Below are positions 3,230 to 19,134 of a DNA stretch of 51,102 bases, piece by piece. The DNA is from Mariniphaga sp. GTDB lineage: Bacteria; Bacteroidota; Bacteroidia; Bacteroidales; Prolixibacteraceae. Positions within the stretch are counted from its first letter, which is position 1, and the number at the start of each line of letters is the position of its first letter. Made by a program: the position numbers and the translations under genes. The stretch lies in the NCBI GenBank assembly GCA_010906965.1, contig JAAFHB010000010.1:1-51102 (forward strand). Direction: 5' to 3'. The notes under the pieces are model-generated. The model had not been told where the DNA came from. It saw only the letters and a list, made by a program, of their open reading frames with translations, and ran no database searches.

Positions 3230-3817
3230 ATGAAGAAGGTATTACTCTTTTTGGCAGATGGCTTCGAGACCCTTGAAGCAGGTGCATTTATAGATGTTAT
3301 CGGATGGAACCAGGTTGAAGGAGACAGCAAAACTCAGTTATTTTCGTGCGGACTTCGTCGCGAAGTCAAAAGTTCGTTCAATCAACGGGTGGTTGTTGAT
3401 TATTTAATCGGTGATATTAATCCAGAGGAATTCGATGCGCTTGCAATCCCTGGCGGATTCGAAGAGTACGGTTATTATAATGATGCCTACAGCGACGAAT
3501 TCCTAAAACTCATCCGAATATTTAATGCACATGGCAAAATCATCGCATCGGTTTGTGTAGGGTCATTACCGATTGCCCGAAGCGGTATTTTAATAAACCG
3601 CAGGGCGACCACTTACAATAAAAATACGTTAAGAATTGAAGAATTGGCAAGTTATGGAGTCAATGTAATCGAAGAACCGATTGTAATGGATTGCAATGTG
3701 ATCACCTCCTGGGATCCATCAACCGCTGCGGATGTTGCCTTTCTGTTGCTCGAACGATTGACTACAAAAATGCAGAGTGATTATATCCGTAAGATTATGG
3801 GTTTTAAATTGAAATAA
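3230..3817 (+). CDS. DJ-1/PfpI-family protein
   Basis: The 195-residue protein has the DJ-1/PfpI flavodoxin-like fold. It begins KKVLLFLADGFETLEAGA, with the conserved Glu16. It carries the nucleophile-elbow sequence ASVCVGSLPIA with Cys109, and the AIPGG motif before it. The C-terminal part contains VMDCNVITSWDPSTAADVAFLLLE, as in the DJ-1 type, with no obvious His partner of a PfpI protease. Known members act as deglycase/glyoxalase III, chaperones or redox sensors; I cannot choose among these. It lies 21 bases upstream of dapF and probably shares its transcript. Confidence 0.85.
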   Translation: MKKVLLFLADGFETLEAGAFIDVIGWNQVEGDSKTQLFSCGLRREVKSSFNQRVVVDYLIGDINPEEFDALAIPGGFEEYGYYNDAYSDEFLKLIRIFNAHGKIIASVCVGSLPIARSGILINRRATTYNKNTLRIEELASYGVNVIEEPIVMDCNVITSWDPSTAADVAFLLLERLTTKMQSDYIRKIMGFKLK

Positions 3818-5898: not shown

Positions 5899-7428
5899 AT
5901 GAGCGAAAGAAGAGTTAGGGTTCGTTTTGCCCCAAGTCCAACGGGACCGCTTCATATCGGAGGTGTTCGTACAGCATTATTTAATTATTTGTTTGCAAAA
6001 AAACACGGAGGCGACTTCCTGCTTCGGATTGAAGATACCGATCAGGGACGTTATGTACCAGGAGCTGAAGATTATATACAGGAAGCATTGGAATGGTGCG
6101 GAATGAAAGTTGATGAAGGGCCAAAACAAGGCGGACCATTTGCACCCTACCGTCAAAGCGAACGGAAAGAACTCTATCGTCAATATGCAGACCAATTGCT
6201 TGCAAGCGGACATGCCTATTATGCATTCGATAGCCCCGAAGAACTTGATCAGGCACGTGCGACTGCTGAAGAAAAGGGTGAAACCTTTACTTACAATGCG
6301 CTATCACGTAGCGGGATGAAAAATTCACTTTCACTTTCGGAAGATGATTGTAAAACACTCCTTGCCTCGTCGATCCATTATGCGATTCGGTTTAAAATGC
6401 CCGATAACCTTGATGTAACTGAGGTTGATTTAATCCGAGGAAGCGTTACTTTCAATACATCGTCGCTCGATGACAAAGTTTTGTTCAAAAGTGACGGAAT
6501 GCCAACCTATCACCTTGCCAATGTGGTCGATGATCACCTGATGGAGATTTCACACGTGATTCGTGGTGAAGAGTGGCTCCCTTCAATGCCATTACATGTG
6601 CTTTTGTACCGCGCATTTGGCTGGGAAGATACGATGCCCCGTTTTACACACCTTCCGTTGATCTTAAAACCTGTCGGAAAAGGAAAACTTAGCAAGCGCG
6701 ATGGCGATAAAATGGGATTCCCAGTGTTTCCATTGCTTTGGAAAGATCCGGAAACTGGTGATACTTCGCGTGGCTATCGTGAAGACGGCTTTTTCCCCGA
6801 TGCTTTTATCAATATGCTTGCCTTATTGGGATGGAATCCGGGCACGGAACAGGAAATTTTTTCGATGGAAGAACTTTGTGAAGCATTTTCGCTTGATAGA
6901 GTTGGACATTCGGGCGCACGCTTCGATCCTGAGAAAACGAAATGGTATAATCACCAATATTTCATCAAAAAATCGGACCAGGAATTAGGCGAATTATTGC
7001 TTCCTTTCCTCAAAGAGAAAGGTATTATTGTTGAACCGGTAATGGCAACAAGGGTTTGCGGCATGGTAAAGGAAAGATGCAATTTTGTATCCGAAATATG
7101 GGATCAAAGTTACTATCTATTTCAGGCACCAACCACTTACGATGAAAAAATAGCGGCCAAACGCTGGAAAGATGATGTTCCTGCAATAATGGGTGAGATT
7201 GCAGTGTTTTTCGAAACCGTACAGCAATGGAATGCACCTGAAATTAAGGAACCATTCTCTGCATTTGTAACAACAAAAGGTTGGAATTTCGGTACGGTAA
7301 TGAATTCATTACGGCTTTGCCTCGTTGGCGGCAGTTTTGGTCCCGATATCTTCGAAATTTGCGATCTGATCGGAAAAGCGGAAACCATTTCACGAATTAA
7401 AAAGGCGATAGATACAATCAAAGTTTAA
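5899..7428 (+). CDS. gltX: Glutamate--tRNA ligase
   Basis: GltX charges tRNA-Glu with glutamate in the cytoplasm. The class I synthetase signatures are clear: the HIGH box appears as PSPTGPLHIGG (His19-Gly22) and the KMSKS loop as KLSKRDG near residue 263. RTALFNYLFAKKHGG, LLRIEDTD and the GEEWLPSMPLH segment also fit GluRS. The length of 509 residues is normal for the phylum. ATG 5899 is the only start that gives the conserved N-terminus. It has its own promoter-like element and is followed by a strong terminator. The sequence does not show whether the enzyme discriminates against tRNA-Gln. Confidence 0.97.
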   Translation: MSERRVRVRFAPSPTGPLHIGGVRTALFNYLFAKKHGGDFLLRIEDTDQGRYVPGAEDYIQEALEWCGMKVDEGPKQGGPFAPYRQSERKELYRQYADQLLASGHAYYAFDSPEELDQARATAEEKGETFTYNALSRSGMKNSLSLSEDDCKTLLASSIHYAIRFKMPDNLDVTEVDLIRGSVTFNTSSLDDKVLFKSDGMPTYHLANVVDDHLMEISHVIRGEEWLPSMPLHVLLYRAFGWEDTMPRFTHLPLILKPVGKGKLSKRDGDKMGFPVFPLLWKDPETGDTSRGYREDGFFPDAFINMLALLGWNPGTEQEIFSMEELCEAFSLDRVGHSGARFDPEKTKWYNHQYFIKKSDQELGELLLPFLKEKGIIVEPVMATRVCGMVKERCNFVSEIWDQSYYLFQAPTTYDEKIAAKRWKDDVPAIMGEIAVFFETVQQWNAPEIKEPFSAFVTTKGWNFGTVMNSLRLCLVGGSFGPDIFEICDLIGKAETISRIKKAIDTIKV

Positions 7429-7473
7429 TCTGACAATATCTTTATCTGATAAATTAACGTTTAAATTTCACTA

Positions 7474-7518
7474 AAATCCCCGGAAAATTCCGTTTACAGG
7501 CGGACTTTCCGGGGATTT
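7474..7518. terminator. Bidirectional terminator between gltX and the sod gene
   Basis: A perfect 13-bp inverted repeat pairs AAATCCCCGGAAA (7474-7486) with TTTCCGGGGATTT (7506-7518) around a 19-base loop. The A and T runs at its ends make it usable from both strands, which suits the two convergent genes. Confidence 0.85.
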
Positions 7519-7555
7519 CTATTGAAATTACTTTTAATAAACAATCAGTAATTGA

Positions 7556-8308
7556 CTATTTTAAAGCCTTTAATGCTTCATCGTAACGACGGGAAACTTC
7601 TTTCCAGTTCACAATCTTCCAGAAAGCATCAACATATTCCGGACGGCGGTTCTGATATTGAAGATAATAGGCATGTTCCCAGACATCAAGTGTAAGAACA
7701 GGAATACCCCGAACTTCGGTCGTACTCATCAACGGATTATCCTGATTAGGCGTTGAACTCACGACTAATTTACCGTTTTCATTCACCGACAACCACGCCC
7801 AACCGCTTCCGAACTGTTTTTTTCCGGCATTGCTGAAAGTTTCCTTGAATTTATCGACACTTCCAAAGGACTCATTGATTGCTTTCAGCAGTTCACCGGT
7901 TGGTTCCTGACCAGAAGCAGGCGCCATTAGCATCCAAAATAACAAATGGTTATAAAATCCTCCTCCATTATTCTTAACAAGAACAGGATATTTTTCTATT
8001 TCAGTAAATAGCTGGAAAAGTGTCTTTGAAGCAAATTCAGGACCCGTTGTTGCATCATTCATATTCTTTGTATAGGCTGCATGATGCTTGGAATAGTGAA
8101 TCTCCATTGTTTTTGCATCGACTGACGGTTCCAAAGCATTGTAAGCATAAGGCAAGGGCAATTGTTTTGATTGTCCGGTAAGCTGAGAGTCAGCTAATTT
8201 TGCAAATGCCTTATTCCAAAAGGCATTGTCAGCAGGAAACGGTTTACCCGCAAAAGAAAATGTAGCGAAAAGAACTACTACAAGAATCGATACTAATCGT
8301 TTTTTCAT
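7556..8308 (-). CDS. Exported Mn/Fe superoxide dismutase
   Basis: This enzyme dismutates superoxide to oxygen and peroxide. The 250-residue protein has an N-terminal signal peptide (MKKRLVSILVVVLFATFSFAG) and a linker of about 28 residues before the catalytic fold starts at LPLPYAYNALEP. Metal ligands are in place: His71 (MEIHYSKHH), His in FYNHLLFW, and Asp/His in LDVWEHAYY. The outer-sphere Gln sits in TPNQDNPL, the MnSOD-type position, so a Mn or cambialistic enzyme is more likely than a strict FeSOD. The signal peptide puts it in the periplasm or outside, unlike the cytoplasmic SOD of most Bacteroidota. It stands alone, convergent with gltX. Confidence 0.93.
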   Translation of the reverse strand: MKKRLVSILVVVLFATFSFAGKPFPADNAFWNKAFAKLADSQLTGQSKQLPLPYAYNALEPSVDAKTMEIHYSKHHAAYTKNMNDATTGPEFASKTLFQLFTEIEKYPVLVKNNGGGFYNHLLFWMLMAPASGQEPTGELLKAINESFGSVDKFKETFSNAGKKQFGSGWAWLSVNENGKLVVSSTPNQDNPLMSTTEVRGIPVLTLDVWEHAYYLQYQNRRPEYVDAFWKIVNWKEVSRRYDEALKALK

Positions 8309-8471
8309 CTTTAAATTATTTATTTAACATTTACCAAATAAAAAAAATTCCGATTGACCGGAGTTTATTTAATAATCAAACAAATAGGAGTAAAAAAGGT
8401 TTAAAGAGTCTACTCCGACGGGCAAAAATTACAAAATGCCGAAAATCATTGTACGGGTGAATGCAAAGAAA

Positions 8472-8495
8472 GGGGGAGTTGTGCAATTCTCCCCC
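8472..8495 (-). terminator. Terminator of the ATP-grasp gene
   Basis: GGGGGAG (8472-8478) pairs with CTCCCCC (8489-8495) around a 10-base loop. Read on the minus strand the hairpin is followed by TTTCTTTG, so it best serves the ATP-grasp gene that ends at 8553. Confidence 0.65.
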
Positions 8496-8552
8496 AGACC
8501 CATTTCAATTGAACTGGTTACAAAAAACTAATCTAATCTATGAAAATGAAAA

Positions 8553-9479
8553 TCAATTGTGATTCATCAGCCATTTTGCAATGCTGGATGAAATATCTGA
8601 ACCTGTAATATCCTCGATCCATTCGTACTGACTAATTGGATTCAAGGCATCGAAATACCATTCATCGTTTTCAGTGACAAAAAAGTCGAAAACACCATGG
8701 GTTAAATTTAATTCTGTCATTATCTGAATCGCCTTCATCTTGATTGACATTGGAGGCTGAACAATCGTATAATTTGGTTGACCTGACTCAGCGCCTGCAC
8801 ATTCACAAACCGAGTTGGCTTTAATTTTGCCAACAAAGTATTCTTTACCAACCACTGTACATCGTACCTGGTAATCAGCATGTGCTACAATACAACTATT
8901 TGCAGGTAAATTATCCAAAAAAGCAGTTCCAAACTTATCAGCGCATTTATCAAAGCAATCACCTGCTGATTTTGTTTGACAACCCTGATTCATCAGCTCC
9001 AAAACGCGCTCTCTTTTACTTTCAAAAAAACTATTGAGGTAATTAATATCGTTTGAGCAGATGTATGAAGGCCATTTTAATCCGACATTCTTCGATATAG
9101 AATACTGTCTGAATTGATTCTCGTCATAAAAATCCTGATAGAAATTCAACCATTTTGTTGATTCGAGTGAAGAGAAGAGTTTTTCAAGTGTTTTGTTCCA
9201 AATCTCTTTCCAAATAAAATAATCCTCCACCTGCGGACAGCTATTTTCGATAAATTTTTCAAGACGCGCACCTCTATTCCAAACTGCTTCTATTTCGTTC
9301 GTTGAAAAACAGCAATTTGGGCCTTCTATTTTGAATGAGTTATTTTCGAATTTGACCTGAGTGGATTTTAATGATTCAACATCAAGATTCAGCCTCGAAT
9401 AATCCGCAGCGTTGTCCTGCAGGATTGATTCGACACGATCAGCATGTTTATCACTTTTATCCGATATTATTAAAATCAT
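8553..9479 (-). CDS. ATP-grasp peptide maturase (graspetide ligase-like)
   Basis: This 308-residue protein resembles the RimK-like ATP-grasp enzymes that cyclise graspetides (microviridin MvdC/MvdD and Bacteroidota 'grasp-with-spasm' types). The N-terminal pre-ATP-grasp domain starts MILIISDKSDKHADRV and contains EAVWNRGARL, matching the VW-x-R segment of that group. The later part has ADYQVRCTVVGKEYFVGKI and ends GVFDFFVTENDEWYFDALNP, then QYEWIEDITG. In relatives this last segment reads E-x-N-P; here it is A-L-N-P, with an Asp one position earlier, so a Mg-binding Glu appears replaced. The protein is unusually rich in Cys (NCCF, CQTK, CFDKC, CEC). It lies downstream of the exporter genes and near a double-glycine precursor, which supports the role. 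Confidence 0.75.
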   Translation of the reverse strand: MILIISDKSDKHADRVESILQDNAADYSRLNLDVESLKSTQVKFENNSFKIEGPNCCFSTNEIEAVWNRGARLEKFIENSCPQVEDYFIWKEIWNKTLEKLFSSLESTKWLNFYQDFYDENQFRQYSISKNVGLKWPSYICSNDINYLNSFFESKRERVLELMNQGCQTKSAGDCFDKCADKFGTAFLDNLPANSCIVAHADYQVRCTVVGKEYFVGKIKANSVCECAGAESGQPNYTIVQPPMSIKMKAIQIMTELNLTHGVFDFFVTENDEWYFDALNPISQYEWIEDITGSDISSSIAKWLMNHN

Positions 9480-9603
9480 ACCCTATTATTGTAAAGTAAA
9501 TTGTTATAATTCTTTCCGCACCGACTTTACTTCGGAATTCAGGTATTAATAGGAAAGGGCAGTCATTTGTTACCCTGATTTTGGCTTTATTTTGCAATAA
9601 AAG

Positions 9604-9611
9604 CAAAAATA
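9604..9611 (-). promoter_or_regulatory. Candidate -7 promoter element of the ATP-grasp gene
   Basis: On the minus strand the sequence reads TATTTTTG, an exact TAnnTTTG match, about 125 bases before the ATP-grasp start. The 227-base gap behind HlyD suggests the gene may have its own promoter. No -33 element is clear. Confidence 0.35.
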
Positions 9612-9706
9612 AATTTCAGGATATTTTAATAAGCAGGTTTACAGAACATTATAAATGGTGAAATTTTTAATGATGGTGATATATTACATCGAAGTTTTTT
9701 GATTTT

Positions 9707-11005
9707 CTATTTGCCATTATCGAAAAATGCCCTTAAAGGATTAATTAATCGTGTAATCAGCCGCATTTCTTTTGTAATAATCTCGGCTGTACCGTCCATT
9801 TGTTGAATAAATTTCAGATTCTCGCGGTATGACGAGGTCATTCCGTCGGAAAGCGCAATCTCCGCAACATATCCTTTGGCATCCGGAACCAATGATATCG
9901 ACCTGATATTCCCTTTTAGCATCCCGAACTCCATATATGGAAATCCATTTAATTTCAAATTCACCCGTTGACCAACTTCAACCTTTCCAAAGCCGGATGG
10001 CGGAATCACTGCTTTAGCAATGATTGCCGATTCTTCGACGGGAATAATAGTAGCGATCAGTTCGCCGGTTTTCACCTCCTGATTTACGCTCCAAATGGAA
10101 GTAAAAGTCAGCTTCCCTTCAACGGGACTGGCAACAAGGAACAGCTCCTCCCATTGGTGAATCGCGTTTTCGAGATTTTGTTTCGATTCATCAAGTGCAA
10201 GACGGAATTCCGATAACTCTCTTTCGTGCTGCATCTGCAATTCAACACGGGTAGATTGCATTTGCAGAATTGAAGATTCGGTTTCCCTGAGCACAGCTTC
10301 AAAACCAACGAAAGCCGATTTCTTTGAAAGAAAAACTTGCCGTGACTTATCGTATTCGGCTTCACTTGTCGTCCGTTTAAGGTAAAGTGATGAATCGCGG
10401 GTAAAACTTTTTTGAGACAACGTCAGATCATTTCGTTGAATCTCCCTTTGACGAATTAAAGTCTGGTAATACTCTTCCTGTTTGACAATCTGTTTGTCAA
10501 TTAATCCGATCTTTTGCGGAAGATAGTTTTGCGTAAGATAATGCTTAAAGTTATTCCTGCTTTTCAGAAACGGACCATAACTCTGCTGCAATTCGCCAAG
10601 TGTAAGTTGGTCAGACAAGTCATAGGCAAACACCTGATCATCCCATTTGGCAATTAGAAAGCAATCGGCCAATTCCTTTTTAAGGATCAGGTAGTGAGCA
10701 AAATCTGTTGGATTGTTGATCAATGCAATATTACCTTTCTCAAGAATTATCTGACCATCAACCGCAAATAGCCGATCTATTTTACCGGTTGATTTACTGA
10801 TCAATGAAACCGGCGGATTCTTCTTCGTTAATATCATCGGAGCCCTGATAATCTCGGGAGACTTAAAATAATAGCTTCCGATCAGAAGCGCAGAAAACAT
10901 TGTGAATATGACTGTCAGTCCCCACCGGATTACCCGATTGGGAATAAACGACATAATCGCCTCAACTTCTTCGCTGTGAGCTTCTAAATTAGATTTATCC
11001 GGCAT
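9707..11005 (-). CDS. HlyD-family periplasmic adaptor of a peptide exporter
   Basis: This is a 432-residue membrane-fusion protein. It has a short cytoplasmic N-terminus, one transmembrane segment (about 28-48, WGLTVIFTMFSALLIGSYYF), a lipoyl/barrel half (KSTGKIDRLFAVDGQIILEKG) and a long central coiled coil (about 140-285, with repeated Q/E/K heptads such as QREIQRNDLTLSQKSF). It ends with the returning lipoyl and beta-barrel parts (VASPVEGKLTF, VEVGQRVNLKLNGFPY). Such proteins link an inner-membrane ABC exporter to an outer-membrane channel. It starts 75 bases after the C39 ABC transporter on the same strand, the usual pairing for exporters of double-glycine peptides. Confidence 0.92.
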   Translation of the reverse strand: MPDKSNLEAHSEEVEAIMSFIPNRVIRWGLTVIFTMFSALLIGSYYFKSPEIIRAPMILTKKNPPVSLISKSTGKIDRLFAVDGQIILEKGNIALINNPTDFAHYLILKKELADCFLIAKWDDQVFAYDLSDQLTLGELQQSYGPFLKSRNNFKHYLTQNYLPQKIGLIDKQIVKQEEYYQTLIRQREIQRNDLTLSQKSFTRDSSLYLKRTTSEAEYDKSRQVFLSKKSAFVGFEAVLRETESSILQMQSTRVELQMQHERELSEFRLALDESKQNLENAIHQWEELFLVASPVEGKLTFTSIWSVNQEVKTGELIATIIPVEESAIIAKAVIPPSGFGKVEVGQRVNLKLNGFPYMEFGMLKGNIRSISLVPDAKGYVAEIALSDGMTSSYRENLKFIQQMDGTAEIITKEMRLITRLINPLRAFFDNGK

Positions 11006-11080
11006 GACAATAGTACTTTTCGTTCAATATTCATTTCAATTTCGAAAGGATGATTTAAACTGCTGAATCAGGAACAACAA

Positions 11081-13297
11081 TTAGCCACCAAGTTCAAGCT
11101 GATCTTTAACAAGATTAAAATAGATTCCCTTTTTGCCAACAAGTTCAGGATGAGTACCCTTTTCGACAATCTCCCCGCCTTCCAAAACTACAATCTGATC
11201 GGCATTTTTAACGGTACTTAATCGGTGCGCAACCACAATAACCGTACGATCTTTGAAAAACTGGTTCAGGTTATCCATGATCACCAACTCATTGCGGGCA
11301 TCCAGGGCGTTGGTTGCTTCGTCGAAAAAGATATAATCGGGATTCTTGTAAACGGACCGTGCAATAAGGATGCGCTGCTTTTGGCCTGTACTCAATCCAT
11401 GTCCATCACTGCCGATTCGGGTATCGTAGCGCAGGGGTAGCGCTTCGATAAACGATTGTATATTAGCAGTTGCAACAGCCTTTTCTACTTTCACAAAATC
11501 AGGGATTTCATCACCAATTCCGATATTGCCTGCAATGGTATCCGAAAAAATAAAACCTTCCTGCATTACAACACCACACCGTTTGCGCCACTGTTGCTGG
11601 CTGTAACTATCGATTGAAACTCCGCCCAGCAATATTTCACCTTTAACCTGTTTGTAAAAACCAAGAATCAGCTTGACAAGCGTACTTTTTCCACTTCCAC
11701 TCGTTCCAACAATTGCTGTAATTTTGTTTGCCGGAATCTCGAGATTTATCTTCTTCAACACTTTTGGTGAATTAGGCCCTTCGTACTGAAATGTTACGTT
11801 TTTCAATACAATATCTCTTCCTGCCGGAATATCATATATTTTCCGCTCTTCAGGTTTCTCCTCGTCTTCTTTCTCATTGATCTCACTTAACCGCTCAAGA
11901 CTGATTTTTGCATCCTGAGCCGATTGAATAAATCCAATAAATAGCTGGATGGGCGCATTCAATTGCCCTATGATATATTGTACCGCCATCATCATCCCGA
12001 GTGTCATATCACCTGTCACTACTGCCCTGGCGGTCATAAAAGAGATGATAATGTCTTTGGTCTGATTGATAAAGGTAGCGCCTACCATCTGATTCTGATT
12101 AAGAATCAGACCCTTAATGTTAACTTTATATAACTTTGCCTGAATGCGTTCCCACTCCCACCGTTTTTGCTTTTCGCAATTATTGAGCTTAATCTCCTGC
12201 ATCCCTGTAATCAGCTGAACAATATTACTCTGATTGGCTGAAGCTTGTTGAAATCGTTTATAATCCAGGGTCCGCCTTCTTTTAAGAAAAAGCAGCACCC
12301 AACCAATATATAACAGGCTTCCAATAACAAATACAACTAAAATGCCCGGGTGATAAGTGGCCATTATAACTGTATAAATCAACAATGTGATGGTTGCAAA
12401 CAGAATATTCACAAGAGATGAAGTGAGGAAGGTTTGAATCCGGCTGTGATCTCCCATTCGCTGCATGATATCACCCACCATTTTCGAATCAAAAAATGAG
12501 ATTGGCAACCGCATCAGTTTGATTAAAAAATCAGAGATCAATGAAATGCTCACCCTTGTTGTCACGTGCAACATGATCCAGTTTCGGATCATCTCGTTTG
12601 CTGTCTGACCAAAAGTTAGGACTAACTGTGCAATCAATACCATCATGATAAAATTCACGTCGCTATTCCCAATTCCATAATCAACAATTGATTGGGTCAG
12701 AAACGGAAAAATCATGCTCACAAGACTTCCGGTTAGCATCCCAATCAGAAGTTGAATGATAAATTTCCGGTACGGACGCAAATAATTCAGCAGGTAACCA
12801 TACCTTCCAATGCTATGATCTTCCTTATCTTCGTTATAAAACTGAGTTGAAGGTTCGAGCAATAATGCAATACCCTCATTTCCCTGAGCCAGCCAACATT
12901 TTAAAAACTCCGTCTTCTTGTATTCTAACATTCCATGGGCAGGATCGGCAATTTGCACGACCTCTTGTCCTTCTTTCTGTTTCGAGAAAAACGAGAACCG
13001 TCCTTTTCGGGAGATTTGGGTAACAACAACAAAATGTTTTTGATTCCAATGGATGATGCAGGGAAGTGGCACCTCGTCTCTTAGTTGCTCCCATGTAACA
13101 CGCACTCCCCTCGATCTGAAACCCAGGTTCTCGGCAGCATCACACAAACTAAGCATAGATACACCCTCACGCGTCGGAAAAGAGAGGCTTCGTAAATGCG
13201 CCGTCGAATAGCTGCGACCATAATACTTAGATATCATTCGCAGGCAAGTCGGCCCGCAATCCATAACATCAAGTTGCATGAAGAAAGGAAATCGCAT
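11081..13297 (-). CDS. Peptidase-containing ABC transporter (C39 bacteriocin/RiPP exporter)
   Basis: This 738-residue PCAT combines three domains. Residues 1-130 form a C39 cysteine protease with Gln8, Cys14 (MDCGPTCLRM), His88 (KHFVVV) and Asp118 (IADPAHG), all the catalytic residues. Residues about 165-450 form a six-helix ABC transporter membrane domain. The rest is the ATPase, with Walker A GTSGSGKSTLVK, signature LSTGQKQR and Walker B YIFFDEAT. Such proteins cut leader peptides after a Gly-Gly pair and export the core. The divergent 51-residue peptide ending its leader in LRGG is the obvious substrate. It is the first gene of the minus-strand unit PCAT-HlyD-ATP-grasp. Confidence 0.95.
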   Translation of the reverse strand: MRFPFFMQLDVMDCGPTCLRMISKYYGRSYSTAHLRSLSFPTREGVSMLSLCDAAENLGFRSRGVRVTWEQLRDEVPLPCIIHWNQKHFVVVTQISRKGRFSFFSKQKEGQEVVQIADPAHGMLEYKKTEFLKCWLAQGNEGIALLLEPSTQFYNEDKEDHSIGRYGYLLNYLRPYRKFIIQLLIGMLTGSLVSMIFPFLTQSIVDYGIGNSDVNFIMMVLIAQLVLTFGQTANEMIRNWIMLHVTTRVSISLISDFLIKLMRLPISFFDSKMVGDIMQRMGDHSRIQTFLTSSLVNILFATITLLIYTVIMATYHPGILVVFVIGSLLYIGWVLLFLKRRRTLDYKRFQQASANQSNIVQLITGMQEIKLNNCEKQKRWEWERIQAKLYKVNIKGLILNQNQMVGATFINQTKDIIISFMTARAVVTGDMTLGMMMAVQYIIGQLNAPIQLFIGFIQSAQDAKISLERLSEINEKEDEEKPEERKIYDIPAGRDIVLKNVTFQYEGPNSPKVLKKINLEIPANKITAIVGTSGSGKSTLVKLILGFYKQVKGEILLGGVSIDSYSQQQWRKRCGVVMQEGFIFSDTIAGNIGIGDEIPDFVKVEKAVATANIQSFIEALPLRYDTRIGSDGHGLSTGQKQRILIARSVYKNPDYIFFDEATNALDARNELVIMDNLNQFFKDRTVIVVAHRLSTVKNADQIVVLEGGEIVEKGTHPELVGKKGIYFNLVKDQLELGG

Positions 13298-13746
13298 AAT
13301 TAAACCAATAAATAAAATTATTTTGATGACCGGTCAATAAACTGCCCCCAGGTTTACCGGTCAATTCGAATGGAGAAGTTTAAAATCCTGAGTTGTAAAA
13401 ATAGTTTAATAAAGTTTCATTTTTCTGGCATTCGCTTACAAAAAATAAAAAAAACATTTTTTTTTAATAAATAATTGAAAAACAATAATGATATTCGTAT
13501 CGTATTCAATATCTACAATATAGAAACACTTTATTTTAATTTTTAATATTCTTCTGTAAAACAACTATAATTCATAATACAAGCCAAACACAGCATAAAC
13601 AATATATATTCAACATGTTACAGGAGCGAATTAAAATTTACACTTCGCAGTACATTTCAATACTGTACCCAAATATTTTTTTCTTTCAGGTAACAAATCA
13701 GTGCCTATTCCTATTAACATTCATAAACTCAAAAAAAACACTCAAT
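13298..13746. other. Divergent promoter region between exporter and precursor
   Basis: This AT-rich 449-base region separates the exporter operon (leftward) from the precursor gene (rightward). It contains two direct copies of ACCGGTCAAT (see separate entry). It also contains an in-frame extension of the precursor (from 13615) that reads as unstructured AT-rich sequence and is judged non-coding. No exact TAnnTTTG element was seen. Confidence 0.5.
13329..13365. promoter_or_regulatory. Direct repeats ACCGGTCAAT, operator-like
   Basis: Two exact 10-base copies, at 13329-13338 and 13356-13365, are spaced 27 bases start to start. The first copy lies within a GACCGGTC palindrome. They lie 32-68 bases upstream of the exporter start, where a regulator or sigma-factor site would be expected. 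Confidence 0.45.
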
Positions 13747-13902
13747 ATGAAAAGCAAGTTATTCATTTCCGAAAAGAACGAAGGTTTCGAAATCAAATTT
13801 AAAAGTCTGAACAATGACGAAATGAATAACCTCAGAGGTGGTGGCAGGGAACTTCCACCAAGTGGTGGCGAGGATTTTCCTCTTGATCCTTTCAAAAAAT
13901 AA
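13747..13902 (+). CDS. Double-glycine leader precursor peptide (putative graspetide)
   Basis: This 51-residue peptide has a leader of about 32 residues (MKSKLFISEKNEGF, then FKSLNNDEMNNLRGG). The leader shows the L-N-x-x-x-M-x-x-L-(K/R)-G-G ending common to Bacteroidota peptides exported by C39 transporters. Cleavage after Gly32 would release a 19-residue core, GRELPPSGGEDFPLDPFKK. The core has acidic residues (Glu35, Glu42, Asp43, Asp47) and possible nucleophiles Ser39, Lys50 and Lys51, as needed for ATP-grasp ester or amide cross-links. It has no Cys or Thr, arguing against lanthipeptide or sactipeptide chemistry. ATG 13747 is chosen because the leader pattern begins there; the frame stays open to 13615. 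It faces the PCAT operon head to head. Confidence 0.75.
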   Translation: MKSKLFISEKNEGFEIKFKSLNNDEMNNLRGGGRELPPSGGEDFPLDPFKK

Positions 13903-13958
13903 CACAGTTCAATTAGAATAATTTCCTCTGAAAATCTCATTATTAAGATTCATATATT

Positions 13959-13996
13959 CTATGAATGTGAATACCAATATTTACAACATTCATAGC
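13959..13996 (+). terminator. Inverted repeat downstream of the precursor gene
   Basis: CTATGAATGT (13959-13968) pairs perfectly with ACATTCATAG (13987-13996) across an 18-base loop, 57 bases after the precursor stop. There is no T-tract, so it may protect the 3' end of the short transcript or act as a protein site rather than terminate. Confidence 0.4.
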
Positions 13997-14056
13997 TTAC
14001 TTTCTGATCATACAATTGTATCATCATTCCCCATACAAGGTGTTTTTTTAAGCTAT

Positions 14057-14083
14057 TTAAAAGATTATCCTAAAATCTTTTAA
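14057..14083 (+). promoter_or_regulatory. 10-bp inverted repeat upstream of the CHAT gene
   Basis: TTAAAAGATT (14057-14066) and AATCTTTTAA (14074-14083) form a perfect inverted repeat with a 7-base spacer, about 50 bases before the CHAT gene start. A TATCTTGC stretch just after it (about 14092) is a near match to the -7 element. It could be an operator or a weak terminator. Confidence 0.4.
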
Positions 14084-14131
14084 CAAATTCCTATCTTGCC
14101 GGAGAATTAGTTGGCAAATTTATCTCTGGTA

Positions 14132-16918
14132 ATGAAGGTTTTATCACTTTTATATTTCTTATTTTTAAGTACAATAAGTTTAGCATCTAATGCTCAGGCA
14201 TCAGCGACAGATACAGTCGTGTCCGTTTATGCCAAATATGGTAACCAGATGAAGTCCGGACACCTGATGGAGGCCGCTACAAGCTTGTCAGGTCTTCTGA
14301 AACCAAATTTCCAATTAACAGGAAAACAAAAACTCGTAATTTACAATAACCTTGGTATAATCCACAAAAAATTGGGACAGTTCGATATCGCTCTTGGATA
14401 TTACGATGCTGCCGAATCCATCTATCTCACGAATAATTTCACAGATAACTCCTTTCTGATGAGTATCTATGGAAATAAAGCGAACATTTATGTAATTAAG
14501 GGCGAGTTCAATAAAGCATTGGAATATGTTGAAAAAGCAATCAGGTCGGTACAAGAGGGAACTGAAACTGGTGTATTAAAACAACAGACTACGTCTTCGC
14601 TCTACCTGAACTCGGGAATTGTCTACTACCAACTTAACGATTTCACTCAAGCTATAATTGCTTTTAAAAAAAGTCTTTCTTTAAAAGAGAAGTATACATT
14701 ACCAGGGAAAGACATTGTTTATCTGCAGTTTGCAAAAACATATGCAAAGAATGGAAATAGCCAATTAGCGGACAAATATTTTAAACTGAGCATCAAACAG
14801 TCAGAATCTGAAAGAAGTAACGTATCTATCAATCTGGCGAGTACATGTCTGGAATATGGTGATTTTCTTATGCTAATCAATGAAAATTCCAAGGCTTTAA
14901 TAATTATTCAAAAAGCACTAAAAATAACTGTTCAAAACTTTGGCGAGAAGAATCAACTTACTGCGAACTGTTACCAAATAATGGGCGACTATTACCGAAG
15001 AGTCAAAGATTATCAGGAAGCCTTAACCTATTATCAAAAAGCGTTGGTGTCCGGTTCAAAAACTTTCAATGCTTCGAATATCCAGGTAAATCCCACAATG
15101 AATGATATCACCCTCAATTTATGGCAGTTAAGACTATTACAAAGTAAAGCAGAAGCTTTACTGAGTCTTGCCAGCGAAGAAAAAGTCAAGCGTGAAAAAA
15201 TCAACTATCTTTCGTTAAGCCTGAATACGATTAACCTTGCCATTGAGATGACAAATTCGATCCGGTTTGATTACCAGAATGTTGAAACCCGGTTAGTATT
15301 TAATGAGAAGCAAAAGAATGTATTTGTTGCAGCCCTTGAAACTGCATTGCAACTATATGATCTGTCAGGCGAAAGAAGCTATTTGCACCTTGCCTATCAG
15401 ACCGCGCAACAATGCAAAGCCAATGAACTCAAGTACGAAATTTCCAAAAACAAATCATATACCGATAACGAGATACCTGATTCGCTGCGAAATAAAGAGA
15501 ATAAACTACAACAGGATATTGCGGCTTACAATAATCTTATCCAAAATGAACTGGCACTAATCAAGCCGGATACCGCCAAAATTGCTTTTTGGAAAGACCA
15601 GCAGTTTGCTTTGAGCCGCGATCTCGAGAAAACGATTGAACAGACTGAAAAAAAATACCCCCGGTTTATTGATAAAATTAAAAAGGGGAATATCATTAGG
15701 ATAGCGGAAATACAGGCCAATTTAAAACCGGATGACAGTTTAATTGAATATTTATTTTCAGAAAAGGATGAAAAAGGTAGTCGGAAATTGTACGAATTTG
15801 TGATTACGCCGACAGATTTAATATGCCACACCGAAATAATTGACAGCACTTTATCGGCTAATTTTTCTCTCATGAAAGACCGGTTACTCAATCAATACAC
15901 ACCAGGCAAAGGCCTTGCAAATTATAACCAGTTGAATCAGCTACTTTTTGATGCTTATCGCATTTTGATTCAGCCCCTCGAGAAACACTTTGCAGGCAAG
16001 CAGCTGATTATCATTCCTGACGATGATATCTCCTATTTACCATTCGATGCGTTTTTAACTTCCTGGACGAAAAAGCGGCAGATTAATTATGCCGAATTAT
16101 CGTATTTGATCAGTACCTACACCATTTCATACGCCTACTCAACCAATACTCTGTGGAATAATCAGTTAAAAGCACAAAATCGTCCGAGAGTTATTGGTCT
16201 TGCACCAGATTATTCGAACACAGCATTAGCAGATGGGAAAAGGTACAGCGCTCTTAAAACCAATAATAGGGAGGTCGAAAGCATTCTAACTAATTTTGAT
16301 GGGACTGTTTTAAAAGGCGGACAGGCAACAATTGCCAATTTCAGATCGAATCTAAACGGCGGTGTGATACTCCATCTTGCCATGCATGCAGAGTTAGACA
16401 CCCTCCACTCAGGATCGTCGAGTTTAATATTCGCGCCCGATGTAAAAAATGCGGGGAATTACAGACTCTATAATTACGAAATCGGACAAATGAACATTAT
16501 TTCGCCCATGGTAGTGCTGAGTGCCTGCAACACTGGAGGTGGCAAGCTTTACAGTGGAGAAGGCCTGATGAGCCTTGCACGTAGTTTTGTTTTGGCCGGC
16601 GTTCCTGCGGTAATTGAAACACTCTGGCCGGTAGAAGATGTTGCAGGTTCAAAGATCATGGGTAGCTTTTACAAATACCTGGCTCAAGGCATGCCAAAGA
16701 ATATTGCTCTAAGACAGGCGAAGCTGGACTATATAAGTACAACTTCGCCCTCTTTTGTAAATCCCCAGTTCTGGGCTGCTTACACTTTAGTTGGAGATGT
16801 ATCAGCCCTAAAGCGAATATGGTGGAAGGATCCCTTGATTTTCATTTCACTGTTCAGTTTATTTTTAATTATTGTCGCAATTTTGATTTACCGGTTCAAA
16901 TTTTTAAGAATTAACTGA
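14132..16918 (+). CDS. Membrane-anchored TPR-CHAT (caspase-like) protein
   Basis: This 928-residue protein has an N-terminal signal peptide (MKVLSLLYFLFLSTISLASNAQA), tetratricopeptide-like helical repeats from about 60 to 350 (for example NNLGIIHKKLGQFDIALGYY and GDYYRRVKDYQEALTYYQKA), a charged coiled region, and a C-terminal CHAT domain (about 600-890). The CHAT catalytic pair is present: His752 in HLAMHAE and Cys799 in LSACNTGGGK, followed by GEGLMSLARSFVLAGVPAVI. A final hydrophobic segment (LIFISLFSLFLIIVAILIYR) would anchor it in the inner membrane with the protease in the periplasm. CHAT proteases are caspase relatives. TTG 14111 is an alternative start; ATG 14132 gives the cleaner signal peptide. 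It follows the precursor gene and overlaps the convergent anti-sigma-like gene by 31 bases. Confidence 0.88.
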   Translation: MKVLSLLYFLFLSTISLASNAQASATDTVVSVYAKYGNQMKSGHLMEAATSLSGLLKPNFQLTGKQKLVIYNNLGIIHKKLGQFDIALGYYDAAESIYLTNNFTDNSFLMSIYGNKANIYVIKGEFNKALEYVEKAIRSVQEGTETGVLKQQTTSSLYLNSGIVYYQLNDFTQAIIAFKKSLSLKEKYTLPGKDIVYLQFAKTYAKNGNSQLADKYFKLSIKQSESERSNVSINLASTCLEYGDFLMLINENSKALIIIQKALKITVQNFGEKNQLTANCYQIMGDYYRRVKDYQEALTYYQKALVSGSKTFNASNIQVNPTMNDITLNLWQLRLLQSKAEALLSLASEEKVKREKINYLSLSLNTINLAIEMTNSIRFDYQNVETRLVFNEKQKNVFVAALETALQLYDLSGERSYLHLAYQTAQQCKANELKYEISKNKSYTDNEIPDSLRNKENKLQQDIAAYNNLIQNELALIKPDTAKIAFWKDQQFALSRDLEKTIEQTEKKYPRFIDKIKKGNIIRIAEIQANLKPDDSLIEYLFSEKDEKGSRKLYEFVITPTDLICHTEIIDSTLSANFSLMKDRLLNQYTPGKGLANYNQLNQLLFDAYRILIQPLEKHFAGKQLIIIPDDDISYLPFDAFLTSWTKKRQINYAELSYLISTYTISYAYSTNTLWNNQLKAQNRPRVIGLAPDYSNTALADGKRYSALKTNNREVESILTNFDGTVLKGGQATIANFRSNLNGGVILHLAMHAELDTLHSGSSSLIFAPDVKNAGNYRLYNYEIGQMNIISPMVVLSACNTGGGKLYSGEGLMSLARSFVLAGVPAVIETLWPVEDVAGSKIMGSFYKYLAQGMPKNIALRQAKLDYISTTSPSFVNPQFWAAYTLVGDVSALKRIWWKDPLIFISLFSLFLIIVAILIYRFKFLRIN

Positions 16919-17901
16919 GCTTTTTTCTTATAAATACCTTCAGTTTCGGACAATGTTTCCATTATAGAAAGTGCTTTCAGATTTTCACCCGTTTTAATGT
17001 AGCACAATCCAAGATACCATTGTGCTTCGGGGACAAACTGATCCTCTGCATTCAGAAGGTCATTAAAGACAGTAATAGCTTCAGGGAAATTGCCTTGTCC
17101 CATCTGATTCAGTCCTGAAAATAGAAGAACTTCTGGTAGGTTTTCGTTCATTTTGCGTAATTCTTTAAATGCCAGCTCAGCATGCATATAATCCTTCGAT
17201 AAATAATAATCAACTCCGTCCTGTAATTTTCCGGTAAATTCATTGGAATTTCCCCTTAACCGATATGAATTGGCCTCCAAAGGTTCGTAATACTGGTCGA
17301 AAATAGAACCGCCCATAAATGAAGATGTTACTGGTCTAATCAACAAAAGAGAAAGTATCAATACTGCCGCAGCAACCTGAAAAACAATTTTTCGTGATAC
17401 TCTGCGACGAAGAACTGGCATTTGAATAACCTTTTCGCTGAACGGATCCGATTTTTTTACATATTCCATAATTCGTTTGGCTGCAATATCATCCTCAAGT
17501 GATGGTTTTTTGTGCTCGAAGGTTTTAACCCAATCCTCCGAAACATCATCAATTCCTGAAAGAATCATTTCAACTTCAGCTTTAGCGATCTTTTTCCGGA
17601 ATTCAACTTCAGTATCTACTTCAATTATGCTGAAGTCCTTGCTGATGCTCTTCTCTATATTGGAACGCCGATAATTATCAATATCCTTTCGTGCCAGTAT
17701 TTCAGCTTTAATAAGCTCTGGATCGTTTTCAATCGCCTCGAGCAATAAGCTCTGCTTCATGATTTTATCGATTTTACACTGAAAAATGTACTCTTTTCTT
17801 AAGCGCTCATTCGTGTTTAGACTACGCTTAAATCCTTCCTTTTCAGTTTTAGTCATTTTGCCCGAATGATAGTCGAGAATGATTTCAGTAAAATTGTTCA
17901 T
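16888..17901 (-). CDS. Anti-sigma-like membrane protein with TPR repeats
   Basis: The 337-residue protein has a charged cytoplasmic N-terminus (MNNFTEIILDYHSGKMTKTEKEGF, the kind of short helical start seen in anti-sigma domains that bind ECF factors). One transmembrane segment follows at about 170-190 (FQVAAAVLILSLLLIRP). The periplasmic C-terminal half has TPR-like helices (YYLSKDYMHAELAFKELRKM, GNFPEAITVFNDLL, AQWYLGLCYIKTGENLKAL). It starts 16 bases after the sigma gene stop, so the two are co-transcribed, as sigma/anti-sigma pairs are. The periplasmic TPR domain could sense the neighbouring TPR-CHAT protein, which is inference. Its 3' end is antisense to the end of the CHAT gene. Confidence 0.7.
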   Translation of the reverse strand: MNNFTEIILDYHSGKMTKTEKEGFKRSLNTNERLRKEYIFQCKIDKIMKQSLLLEAIENDPELIKAEILARKDIDNYRRSNIEKSISKDFSIIEVDTEVEFRKKIAKAEVEMILSGIDDVSEDWVKTFEHKKPSLEDDIAAKRIMEYVKKSDPFSEKVIQMPVLRRRVSRKIVFQVAAAVLILSLLLIRPVTSSFMGGSIFDQYYEPLEANSYRLRGNSNEFTGKLQDGVDYYLSKDYMHAELAFKELRKMNENLPEVLLFSGLNQMGQGNFPEAITVFNDLLNAEDQFVPEAQWYLGLCYIKTGENLKALSIMETLSETEGIYKKKAQLILKNLNR

Positions 17902-17917
17902 AATTATTTCTGGTTAT

Positions 17918-18496
17918 TTATTTAATATTTAGGTTTTTCACCAATTCATTATAATCGGGATGTTCCATTATTTTGCTTTTCAACTCTTTCATACATTCAC
18001 TTTTCCTTTTCCGAACATATCCGTAACTGTACCCTAGTTTTTCTGCGATCTCAACCGGAGGAATTTCCAGCCAATACATTTTGAGAATTTTCTGCGATAC
18101 TTCGTCCATTGAATCAAAACTCTGCCTGAAAATATTTTCATAGAATTCACTGTCGCTATATTCTGTAAAATCGTTTTCATTGGGTTCTAAAGAACGACGA
18201 AGTTCGTAATTCTTTGCAGCCTTTAGTTTGTCGAGTGCCATCAGCCACAAATTTTTGCAAATCGCAAACAAATAGGTTGATAGCATACCCTGAAGAACAA
18301 AATCATCATTGTAAATTTTTTCAATTATAATAAATAATGCATCCTGAAAAATATCCTTCGCATCTTCATCATTGCCGTTATTCTTCGATATAAAATATCT
18401 GATTACAGGAAGATTCTCCTTAGCCAGGTATTTCACGGCAAACGATTCGCCTGATTTTAAGCCTTGAATTATTTCCTGATCGGTGTAATTTTTCAT
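17918..18496 (-). CDS. ECF-type RNA polymerase sigma factor
   Basis: This 192-residue sigma-70 family factor keeps region 2 (about 20-90, including EDAKDIFQDALFIIIEKI and STYLFAICKNLWL) and region 4 (about 130-175). Region 4 contains the helix-turn-helix: MDEVSQKILKMYWLE, then PPVEIAEKLGYSYGYVRKRK. Regions 1.1 and 3 are absent, as in ECF factors. A TTG three codons upstream is possible, but ATG 18496 is the standard start. It heads a two-gene unit with the TPR anti-sigma-like gene and lies beside the CHAT/peptide island, so it probably controls some of those genes. Its target promoter is unknown. Confidence 0.9.
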   Translation of the reverse strand: MKNYTDQEIIQGLKSGESFAVKYLAKENLPVIRYFISKNNGNDEDAKDIFQDALFIIIEKIYNDDFVLQGMLSTYLFAICKNLWLMALDKLKAAKNYELRRSLEPNENDFTEYSDSEFYENIFRQSFDSMDEVSQKILKMYWLEIPPVEIAEKLGYSYGYVRKRKSECMKELKSKIMEHPDYNELVKNLNIK

Positions 18497-19134
18497 TTGA
18501 AACAAAATATTCGGTGTTTTTGCTTAATCTTTATAGTGCAAAATAAGCATTTAGTACAGACATCTCTTTGCAACAAATATATATAATTTAAATAGATATA
18601 AGGCACCAACATTGCACATAAATATGAAAACAATGAAATTTATTTTCAGATTACCGATCAGACTAATTCAAATCAGATTTACGAGGCAGCTTTGAATAAA
18701 AATCTATGCCGCGCTCTACAGAATCTGATCTTCAACCTATTTATCAAAGAACGATCATTTAAAATATTCAAACTAAACAACCCAGCTTCAGAGAGAAAAA
18801 TTTCGATCAATCTAAATAAGCGATAATTTATCGTTCAGTTTAAACATTTATACTACTTAATTGGAATAGGAATGGAATTGTTACCCATTTTTGGCAATTA
18901 TTTTTAAAAAATATATCACCGCCCGACGAAGTAAAATAGAATCAATAAGTTAGTGTGCGAAACAAATTGTGATGATGCACCATTTTCGATCGTTAAACGA
19001 TCTAATTTTATTGAATGGGTAATGATTGTGGAAATACAATAAACACTGTTAATACAAACGCGCAAAACAAAAATCATTAAAAGATTGTTGTAATAATAAA
19101 TTTTGCTTTTCTTTGCATCAATAAAATTTAAAAA
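18497..19134. other. AT-rich intergenic region between the sigma gene and the trp leader
   Basis: About 640 bases without a supported gene. A 23-codon frame at 18624-18695 encodes a basic hydrophobic peptide but has nothing else to support it. The right end carries the trp promoter and leader (separate entries). The left end should hold the sigma gene promoter; TATTTTGC on the minus strand near 18540 is a near match only. Confidence 0.5.
19085..19115 (+). promoter_or_regulatory. Candidate trp operon promoter
   Basis: TTG at 19085-19087 and TTTCTTTG at 19108-19115 are spaced 20 bases apart, matching a Bacteroidota -33 TTG and a one-mismatch -7 TAnnTTTG. Transcription would begin near 19122, just before the first leader peptide. 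Confidence 0.45.

Follow-up and report, generated by a model that had tools for sequence, protein, structure and literature searches.

A GG-leader peptide gene beside a TPR-CHAT protein, an anti-sigma-like protein and an ECF sigma factor in Mariniphaga appears to belong to a conserved sigma-factor control circuit

The window analysed here is a stretch of 51,102 nucleotides of Mariniphaga sp. (Bacteroidota, Prolixibacteraceae; contig JAAFHB010000010.1 of the 509-contig assembly GCA_010906965.1), and the subject of this work is a locus within it that brings together a small peptide with a double-glycine (GG) leader, an exporter, an ATP-grasp-like protein, a protein with tetratricopeptide repeats (TPRs) and a CHAT domain, and a sigma factor of the extracytoplasmic function (ECF) type. 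An earlier note on this DNA had read part of the locus as a gene set for a peptide cross-linked by an ATP-grasp ligase, a graspetide; the locus seems rather to belong to a sigma-factor control circuit that is conserved. The genes that the note had named are all open in a check of open reading frames (ORFs). The minus strand carries the genes for a degenerate MvdC/MvdD-like ATP-grasp protein (8553-9479), an HlyD-type adaptor (9707-11005) and an ATP-binding cassette (ABC) exporter with a C39 peptidase domain (11081-13297). On the opposite strand, as the note had said, lies the peptide gene (13747-13902, plus strand, with the ATG at 13747 and the stop at 13902), whose 51 codons specify the leader end LRGG and the remainder GRELPPSGGEDFPLDPFKK. 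On the same strand lies the TPR-CHAT gene (14111-16918), the product of which has a predicted signal peptide, TPRs, the CHAT domain and a C-terminal transmembrane (TM) segment with a basic tail; an alternative ATG at 14132 gives a better signal peptide than the start at 14111. Back on the minus strand, 16888-17901 encodes a TPR anti-sigma-like protein with one TM segment and a juxtamembrane Arg followed by Gly (..YRLRGNS..), and 17918-18505 an ECF sigma factor of the sigma-70 type (TIGR02937, 62.0 bits against a cut-off of 42.9). The description of the ATP-grasp, HlyD and exporter genes as one minus-strand unit is right as to strand, but the ATP-grasp gene has a promoter-like site of its own, and the unit is wider than had been thought, reaching the genes for the one-TM protein and the sigma factor.

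Homologs of the peptide occur in 11 of 18 genomes of the genus (7 of them aligned). The peptides of the window and of locus L016 (15591-15746) stop early, at 51 amino acids as against 71-84 in the nine other peptides of the genus, and in both the match to the peptide profile continues beyond the stop. An inverted repeat, TTGTAT..ATACAA, followed by a T run (14017-14055), lies 3' of the peptide gene; it is terminator-like and recurs in the alignment of the genus. The tie between peptide and CHAT protein extends beyond the genus. A search of 140 family genomes from 23 genera gave TPR-CHAT homologs (E 1e-60) in 99 genomes and 19 genera, and 40 CHAT stretches, picked to span genera, were fetched; 36 of them, from 13 genera other than that of the window, have more than 350 bp of upstream DNA and were usable. 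A GG peptide lies upstream of CHAT in 36 of these 36, by a looser and a strict pattern alike, the four stretches without one having just 22-198 bp of upstream DNA. GG-peptide ORFs number 44 in the 24.8 kb upstream of CHAT versus 6 in the 330.7 kb elsewhere in the same stretches. An ECF match is present in 31 and an anti-sigma match in 30 of the 36 (some stretches end early), most of which are without exporter or ATP-grasp gene, and outside the genus the peptide points away from CHAT. The CHAT protein, which the earlier note had seen as attached to the locus, does lie beside the peptide, but it is more than an attachment, being a more conserved partner of the peptide than the ATP-grasp protein. 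In pairs of peptides within one genome (n = 15, two pairs with chance ORFs, L139 and L142, having been excluded), similarity is higher in the tail than in the leader for 12, equal for 1 and lower for 2.

The TPR-CHAT protein of the window scores 171.9 bits against the Pfam CHAT model, the dyad His759/Cys806 is kept in 49/49 aligned sequences, and with its TPRs and this dyad the protein has the make-up of the Csx29 type. By hydropathy, the 14 sequences listed all have a C-terminal hydrophobic stretch with a basic tail, and 13 of them have an N-terminal stretch as well. The anti-sigma-like protein has a single TM segment by hydropathy and its gene adjoins the ECF gene; this topology and position suggest an anti-sigma role, and in the family-model scans the protein matched no named anti-sigma model. 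The Arg in the stalk after its TM segment is invariant in 40/40 anti-sigma-like sequences of the family (one fragment of 85 amino acids without TM segment being excluded), and the next residue is Ser in 28, Gly in 10, Ala in 1 and Thr in 1.

Three exact sites of one promoter-like motif are found in the window, against 0.07 expected, and they stand before the peptide gene (13689-13717, plus strand, ECF-type, GGTAACA-N14-CCTATTAA), the ECF gene (18857-18885, minus strand, GGTAACA-N14-CCAATTAA) and the ATP-grasp gene (9546-9574, minus strand, 66 bp before the ATG). Upstream alignments in the genus have one conserved block, GGTAACA-N14-YYWAYTAA, before the peptide (10 sequences) and the ECF gene (9). 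The site upstream of the peptide is exact in all 11 same-genus genomes that carry the peptide, and that on the ECF side is exact in the 11 same-genus genomes with this end of the locus assembled. Of 8 loci with the ATP-grasp gene, five carry an exact site before it and three a site with 1, 1 and 2 mismatches, always 56-66 bp from the ATG; a site of this type persists in two loci without the gene (L074, 13324-13484; L076, 5677-5841), where a short conserved stretch comes after the leftover motif and then a terminator-like hairpin, perhaps a small RNA. Near-complete genomes of the genus without the locus have no N14 site (G004, G007, G016) or one (G005), and the incomplete genome G010 has none. 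Over spacings of 11-17 throughout the genus, 52 of 73 matches are N14, or 23 of 44 without the 29 matches at the peptide locus, the N14 motif itself having been derived from N14 sites. Loci of other genera have a cognate motif, G[GT][TA]ACCTTT, which stands before the peptide gene in 32 of 36 (65-77 bp from its ATG in 31, 27 bp in L141) and before the ECF gene in 22 of 34; it occurs 72 times in 348.7 kb, 55 times before peptide or ECF genes, counted in the same loci from which the pattern was derived. The ECF sigma factor presumably uses the motif. Motif sites elsewhere in the genus have other genes downstream. A second GG peptide, resembling class IIb bacteriocins (TIGR03949, 21.7 bits, cut-off 21.5), sits several hundred bases downstream of a site in genome G001 (L264, about 3323-3450, minus strand), and in G003 the sites are followed by a LytTR protein, a GG-containing ORF and a LANC_like protein (L259, 1159-3699, plus strand), an ABC ATPase (L258, 2776-3890, minus strand) and two CPBP-like membrane proteins (L261, 1183-2666, plus strand; a call under the cut-off).

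The exporter supports the earlier supposition that a GG-leader peptide is exported and freed of its leader. Its C39 peptidase domain reaches 104.7 bits, the cut-off being 22 (ABC_membrane 99.1 and ABC_tran 105.3 bits), with its Cys, His and Asp present by eye; the HlyD-type adaptor scores 84.7 bits against TIGR01843, under the cut-off of 208.65. The exporter is the sole full-length C39 protein found in the window genome. HlyD lies beside the C39 gene in every same-genus locus spanning both, and the pair is linked to the peptide in all loci of the genus spanning the region; the window peptide would presumably be exported by this pump. In four other genera, a C39 exporter is present in 16/16 near-complete genomes, usually unlinked to the peptide, and no linked C39/HlyD was seen in the ORF lists of 11 CHAT stretches from other genera. 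Outside the genus C39/HlyD is mostly an orphan pair beside rpsL (7 of 8 stretches), an arrangement seen in none of the nine same-genus genomes with an rpsL match (the tenth, G002, has no such match). A relocation of the exporter from rpsL to the peptide was considered and set aside, as a tree places the window exporters with L289, a second C39 of G523 (70% identical, Cys-rich GG-peptide locus), and outside the rpsL-linked group, several of the loci labelled 'other' in this tree being too short to show rpsL; replacement by an exporter of the kind serving ribosomally synthesized and post-translationally modified peptides (RiPPs) fits the sequences better. Locus L299 of G523 (6946-13951, minus strand) holds HlyD, a C39 exporter of 70% identity and a GG peptide rich in Cys, and is an unmodelled RiPP-like locus. 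Ratios of nonsynonymous to synonymous substitution (dN/dS) between the window and L016 are 0.056 for the ATP-grasp, 0.044 for the HlyD, 0.032 for the C39-ABC and 0.114 for the peptide gene (51 codons), by which measure all four are under purifying selection and behave as genuine genes.

The ATP-grasp protein had been called a ligase of the RimK/MvdD kind, and its kinship with MvdC/MvdD-type ligases stands (E 1e-24 against TIGR04185, 8e-13 against AMdnB 7m4s), but several catalytic residues are lost. The search against graspetide ligase families that the note had suggested was run and reached no curated cut-off: the scores are 87.2 bits for MvdC (cut-off 425), 82.3 for MvdD (350), 62.5 for SAV_5884 (475) and 52.3 for w_spasm (230), and the N-terminal Pfam domain PF21068 alone passes (27.9 against 27). 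Of 149 relatives searched at E 1e-5, counting the window genome, 14 gave an ATP-grasp match; nine are same-genus orthologs (seven full length, among them that of the window, and two partial) and five are of the ordinary type at 25-31% identity. The seven full-length orthologs were aligned with 28 distinct distant relatives (33 before removal of duplicates, the 28 still containing one sequence together with its fragment). The Mg-binding Glu of E-x-N, a metal motif, is present in 28/28 distant relatives but is Ala in five orthologs and Ser in two; the hinge FQExI is deleted and D-x-R missing in all seven, the distant relatives having D-x-R in 25 and D-x-K in 3; and the ATP-site Lys is Glu in four and Lys in three. 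D265, N280 and R206, which we take to be positions of catalytic role, are retained throughout, and some residual activity may run via Asp277, which adjoins the lost Glu. Six cysteines (141, 167, 175, 179, 196 and 207) are invariant among the full-length orthologs of the genus, and of the alignment columns 164-204 just 5 in 41 are invariant, four of these being Cys. An AlphaFold model from the seven sequences had a mean pLDDT of 49.6 and was set aside. The gene is missing from 3 of the 11 same-genus genomes with the peptide (G009, G014 and G015, 97-98% complete), which retain the peptide, exporter, CHAT, anti-sigma and ECF genes; because the contig of G015 ends inside HlyD, the absence there is taken from the genome search, the sole ATP-grasp match of which in that genome is an ordinary relative at 26%. 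The Ser/Thr and Asp of the peptide core are kept in the genus, equally in genomes without the gene, where the core type is unchanged (GGVDFP in L074 and L076, SGDDV in L075). We propose, from these residue losses, that the protein is a catalytically degenerate accessory.

Gene linkage, the intact CHAT dyad, the topology given by hydropathy and the shared promoter-like motif, all read from sequence, point to a circuit of four members, namely the peptide with its GG leader, a periplasmic protease of the TPR-CHAT (caspase-like) kind anchored in the membrane, an anti-sigma factor with TPRs and one TM segment, and the ECF sigma factor. The C39-ABC/HlyD pump would cut the leader at the GG and export the tail of the peptide, and the peptide, or its build-up, would control the periplasmic protease. 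This protease would cut the stalk of the anti-sigma factor, plausibly after the conserved juxtamembrane Arg, and the freed sigma factor would transcribe its own gene and the peptide gene, together with the ATP-grasp-like gene in the genus of the window, closing a feedback loop in which the ATP-grasp-like protein may bind or escort the peptide. The peptide is the likeliest trigger of TPR-CHAT, since it is small, multicopy, conserved in its tail within genomes and controlled like the sigma gene; its action on CHAT, the cleavage of the anti-sigma factor and the direction of the signal are among the deduced parts of the scheme. To an exported peptide wired in this way to a periplasmic TPR-CHAT protease, which frees an ECF sigma factor that expresses the peptide, we assign a probability of roughly 0.45. 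More tentative is its extension to a Gram-negative form of peptide signalling, in which a species-specific GG-exported peptide would be sensed by a periplasmic TPR-CHAT receptor-protease that cuts the anti-sigma factor and so, through the ECF factor, yields more peptide, one lake genus having co-opted a former graspetide ligase, now a Cys-rich pseudo-ATP-grasp protein, as accessory.

Several observations weigh against the circuit. Outside the family, where a CHAT match at E 1e-50 is present in 12 of 294 other genomes of the class, no GG peptide stands upstream of CHAT in any of 16 loci (for 8 of which the searchable DNA was 450 bp or longer), so that the CHAT module works there without a peptide; given 36/36 inside the family, the peptide looks like an addition of the family to an older CHAT/anti-sigma/ECF module. 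The stalk Arg was tried as a marker of CHAT-controlled anti-sigma factors and rejected, for at the level of the class it is found in 13 of 16 sequences with CHAT in reach and in 6 of 10 without (p 0.37; L216, which has no anti-sigma match, L192, on a short contig, the window, and long or partial matches were excluded). Twelve of the 34 ECF genes of other genera are without the cognate motif, and genome G003, which is 68% complete, has six N14 sites although the locus was not found there. Over spacings 11-17 a reversed-pattern control is commoner than the motif, with 115 matches against 73, and a control with a permuted -35 element gave 13 matches, 6 of them at N14 (counted by eye); the spacing statistic taken by itself is thus less strong than its p would indicate, and weight is placed on the position and conservation of the motif instead. 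Finally, the feedback could run the other way, with the peptide as product and not signal, and the circuit is proposed here from sequences alone.

That last thought leads to the main rival, in which TPR-CHAT, on sensing envelope stress or contact, would free the ECF factor, and the GG peptide is a bacteriocin-like effector of the regulon that does not act on CHAT. We regard it as possible, if rather doubtful. The motif sites that precede the bacteriocin-like peptide of L264, the LytTR and LANC-like set of L259, the ABC ATPase of L258 and the CPBP-like protein of L261 (under the cut-off) speak for such an output, as do leaders with a weak match to bacteriocin_sig, which passes the cut-off in three of the seven peptides scanned from outside the genus; each of the additional motif targets was, however, found in one genome only, the peptide is tied to CHAT in 36/36 loci, and the tails are short, often acidic and near-identical between tandem copies, unlike diversified bacteriocins. 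The peptide might otherwise be a direct substrate or inhibitor of CHAT, for instance a pseudo-substrate through its [RK]GG, and not a secreted signal. Clan CD peptidases, to which CHAT is related, prefer Arg, the [RK]GG resembles the R-S/G motif of the anti-sigma stalk, and outside the genus an exporter linked to the peptide is usually missing; yet C39 peptidases usually cut at a GG that follows a helical leader, many peptides have Lys before this GG and L121 has Leu, and the genus of the window links C39/HlyD to the peptide in all spanning loci, which makes this reading improbable.

An active ligase that puts ester or amide rings into the peptide, as the earlier note had proposed, we hold to be very unlikely. 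It would agree with the MvdC/MvdD-like sequence, the purifying selection on the gene, the motif common to the ATP-grasp and peptide genes and the Ser/Thr and Asp kept in the core, but the metal Glu, the hinge and D-x-R are lost in 7/7 orthologs and the Lys in 4/7, and the core type is the same in the loci that have no such gene. With the family cut-offs missed and the gene dispensable, the graspetide chemistry was not borne out, and the active-site losses together with the 3 of 11 peptide genomes without the gene led to the rejection of a canonical graspetide. The grasp-with-spasm variant was also rejected, no radical SAM family having been matched among the scanned neighbours; among the 8 proteins of 7559-18505, there was in agreement with the note no radical SAM, LanM-type or cyclodehydratase family, and 10 further proteins of the window were scanned for families. 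A likelier graspetide-type locus lies in genome G525 (L173, 3101-4722, plus strand), with an ATP-grasp protein of intact E-x-N and two GG peptides beside a C39 exporter. Within the window, Rfam gave no match and PADLOC a generic TPR match only, and 36323-43810 (minus strand) encodes a SprA-type protein of 2495 amino acids (SprA_N, Pfam 689 bits), unrelated to the peptide/CHAT locus.

The proposed circuit of peptide, CHAT protease and sigma factor can be compared with several known systems. In regulated proteolysis of the DegS/RseA type, an ECF/anti-sigma pair is likewise joined to a periplasmic protease and the anti-sigma factor has one TM segment, whereas the protease of the window is a caspase-like CHAT protein with TPRs and the circuit holds a GG peptide gene. 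Gram-positive GG-leader pheromones of the ComC/ComAB type share the GG leader, the C39-ABC exporter and a peptide gene apparently controlled by its own circuit; they have a histidine kinase receptor, no linked one being found here, where a sigma factor and a CHAT protease stand instead. The closest parallel is Craspase (Cas7-11/Csx29, Csx30 and CASP-sigma), in which, according to the available part of the article, the TPR-CHAT protease Csx29 cleaves Csx30, the inhibitor of an ECF-type sigma factor (PMC10028731), and a TPR-CHAT protein likewise lies beside a sigma inhibitor and an ECF-type sigma factor regulating its own locus. As Craspase is described there, the window differs in the signal peptide and C-terminal TM segment of its CHAT protein, in its one-TM inhibitor and in having a GG peptide in place of the RNA trigger; no Cas family was matched among 18 window proteins scanned with Pfam, and no dedicated CRISPR search was made. 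The Csx29/Csx30 logic, moved to the membrane, would explain the gene linkage seen here. ECF54 sigma factors also have CHAT proteins in their neighbourhood, but in the part of the source available they are controlled without an anti-sigma factor and no peptide is named (PMC8999054), in distinction from the anti-sigma-like protein and peptide of the window. Graspetide and grasp-with-spasm loci share with the window an MvdC/MvdD-like relative, a GG precursor and an ABC exporter, and truncated, inactive ATP-grasp proteins have been noted among graspetide-type ligases as branch 8 (PMC8939145); from what the accessible text gives, the window protein differs from that branch in its full length, in the loss of active-site residues and in its new invariant Cys, and the locus from grasp-with-spasm in having no SPASM gene among the scanned proteins and a dispensable ATP-grasp gene. 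The words 'chat' and 'sigma' do not occur in the text of that source, and nothing that combines a GG peptide, CHAT and an ECF/anti-sigma pair was found described in the portion of the open-licence PMC literature that could be consulted.

For the annotation of similar loci the results call for caution, in that an MvdD-like match beside a GG peptide is insufficient for a graspetide call. Bacterial TPR-CHAT proteins are widespread, and to our knowledge trigger and substrate are known for only a few of them. In this locus the order of the genes points to the anti-sigma factor as candidate substrate, to the peptide as candidate trigger and to the GGTAACA promoter as read-out, which makes the scheme directly testable. 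If the peptide is the signal, the locus would represent a sigma-factor-based peptide signalling circuit in Bacteroidota, linking caspase-like proteolysis to communication between cells.

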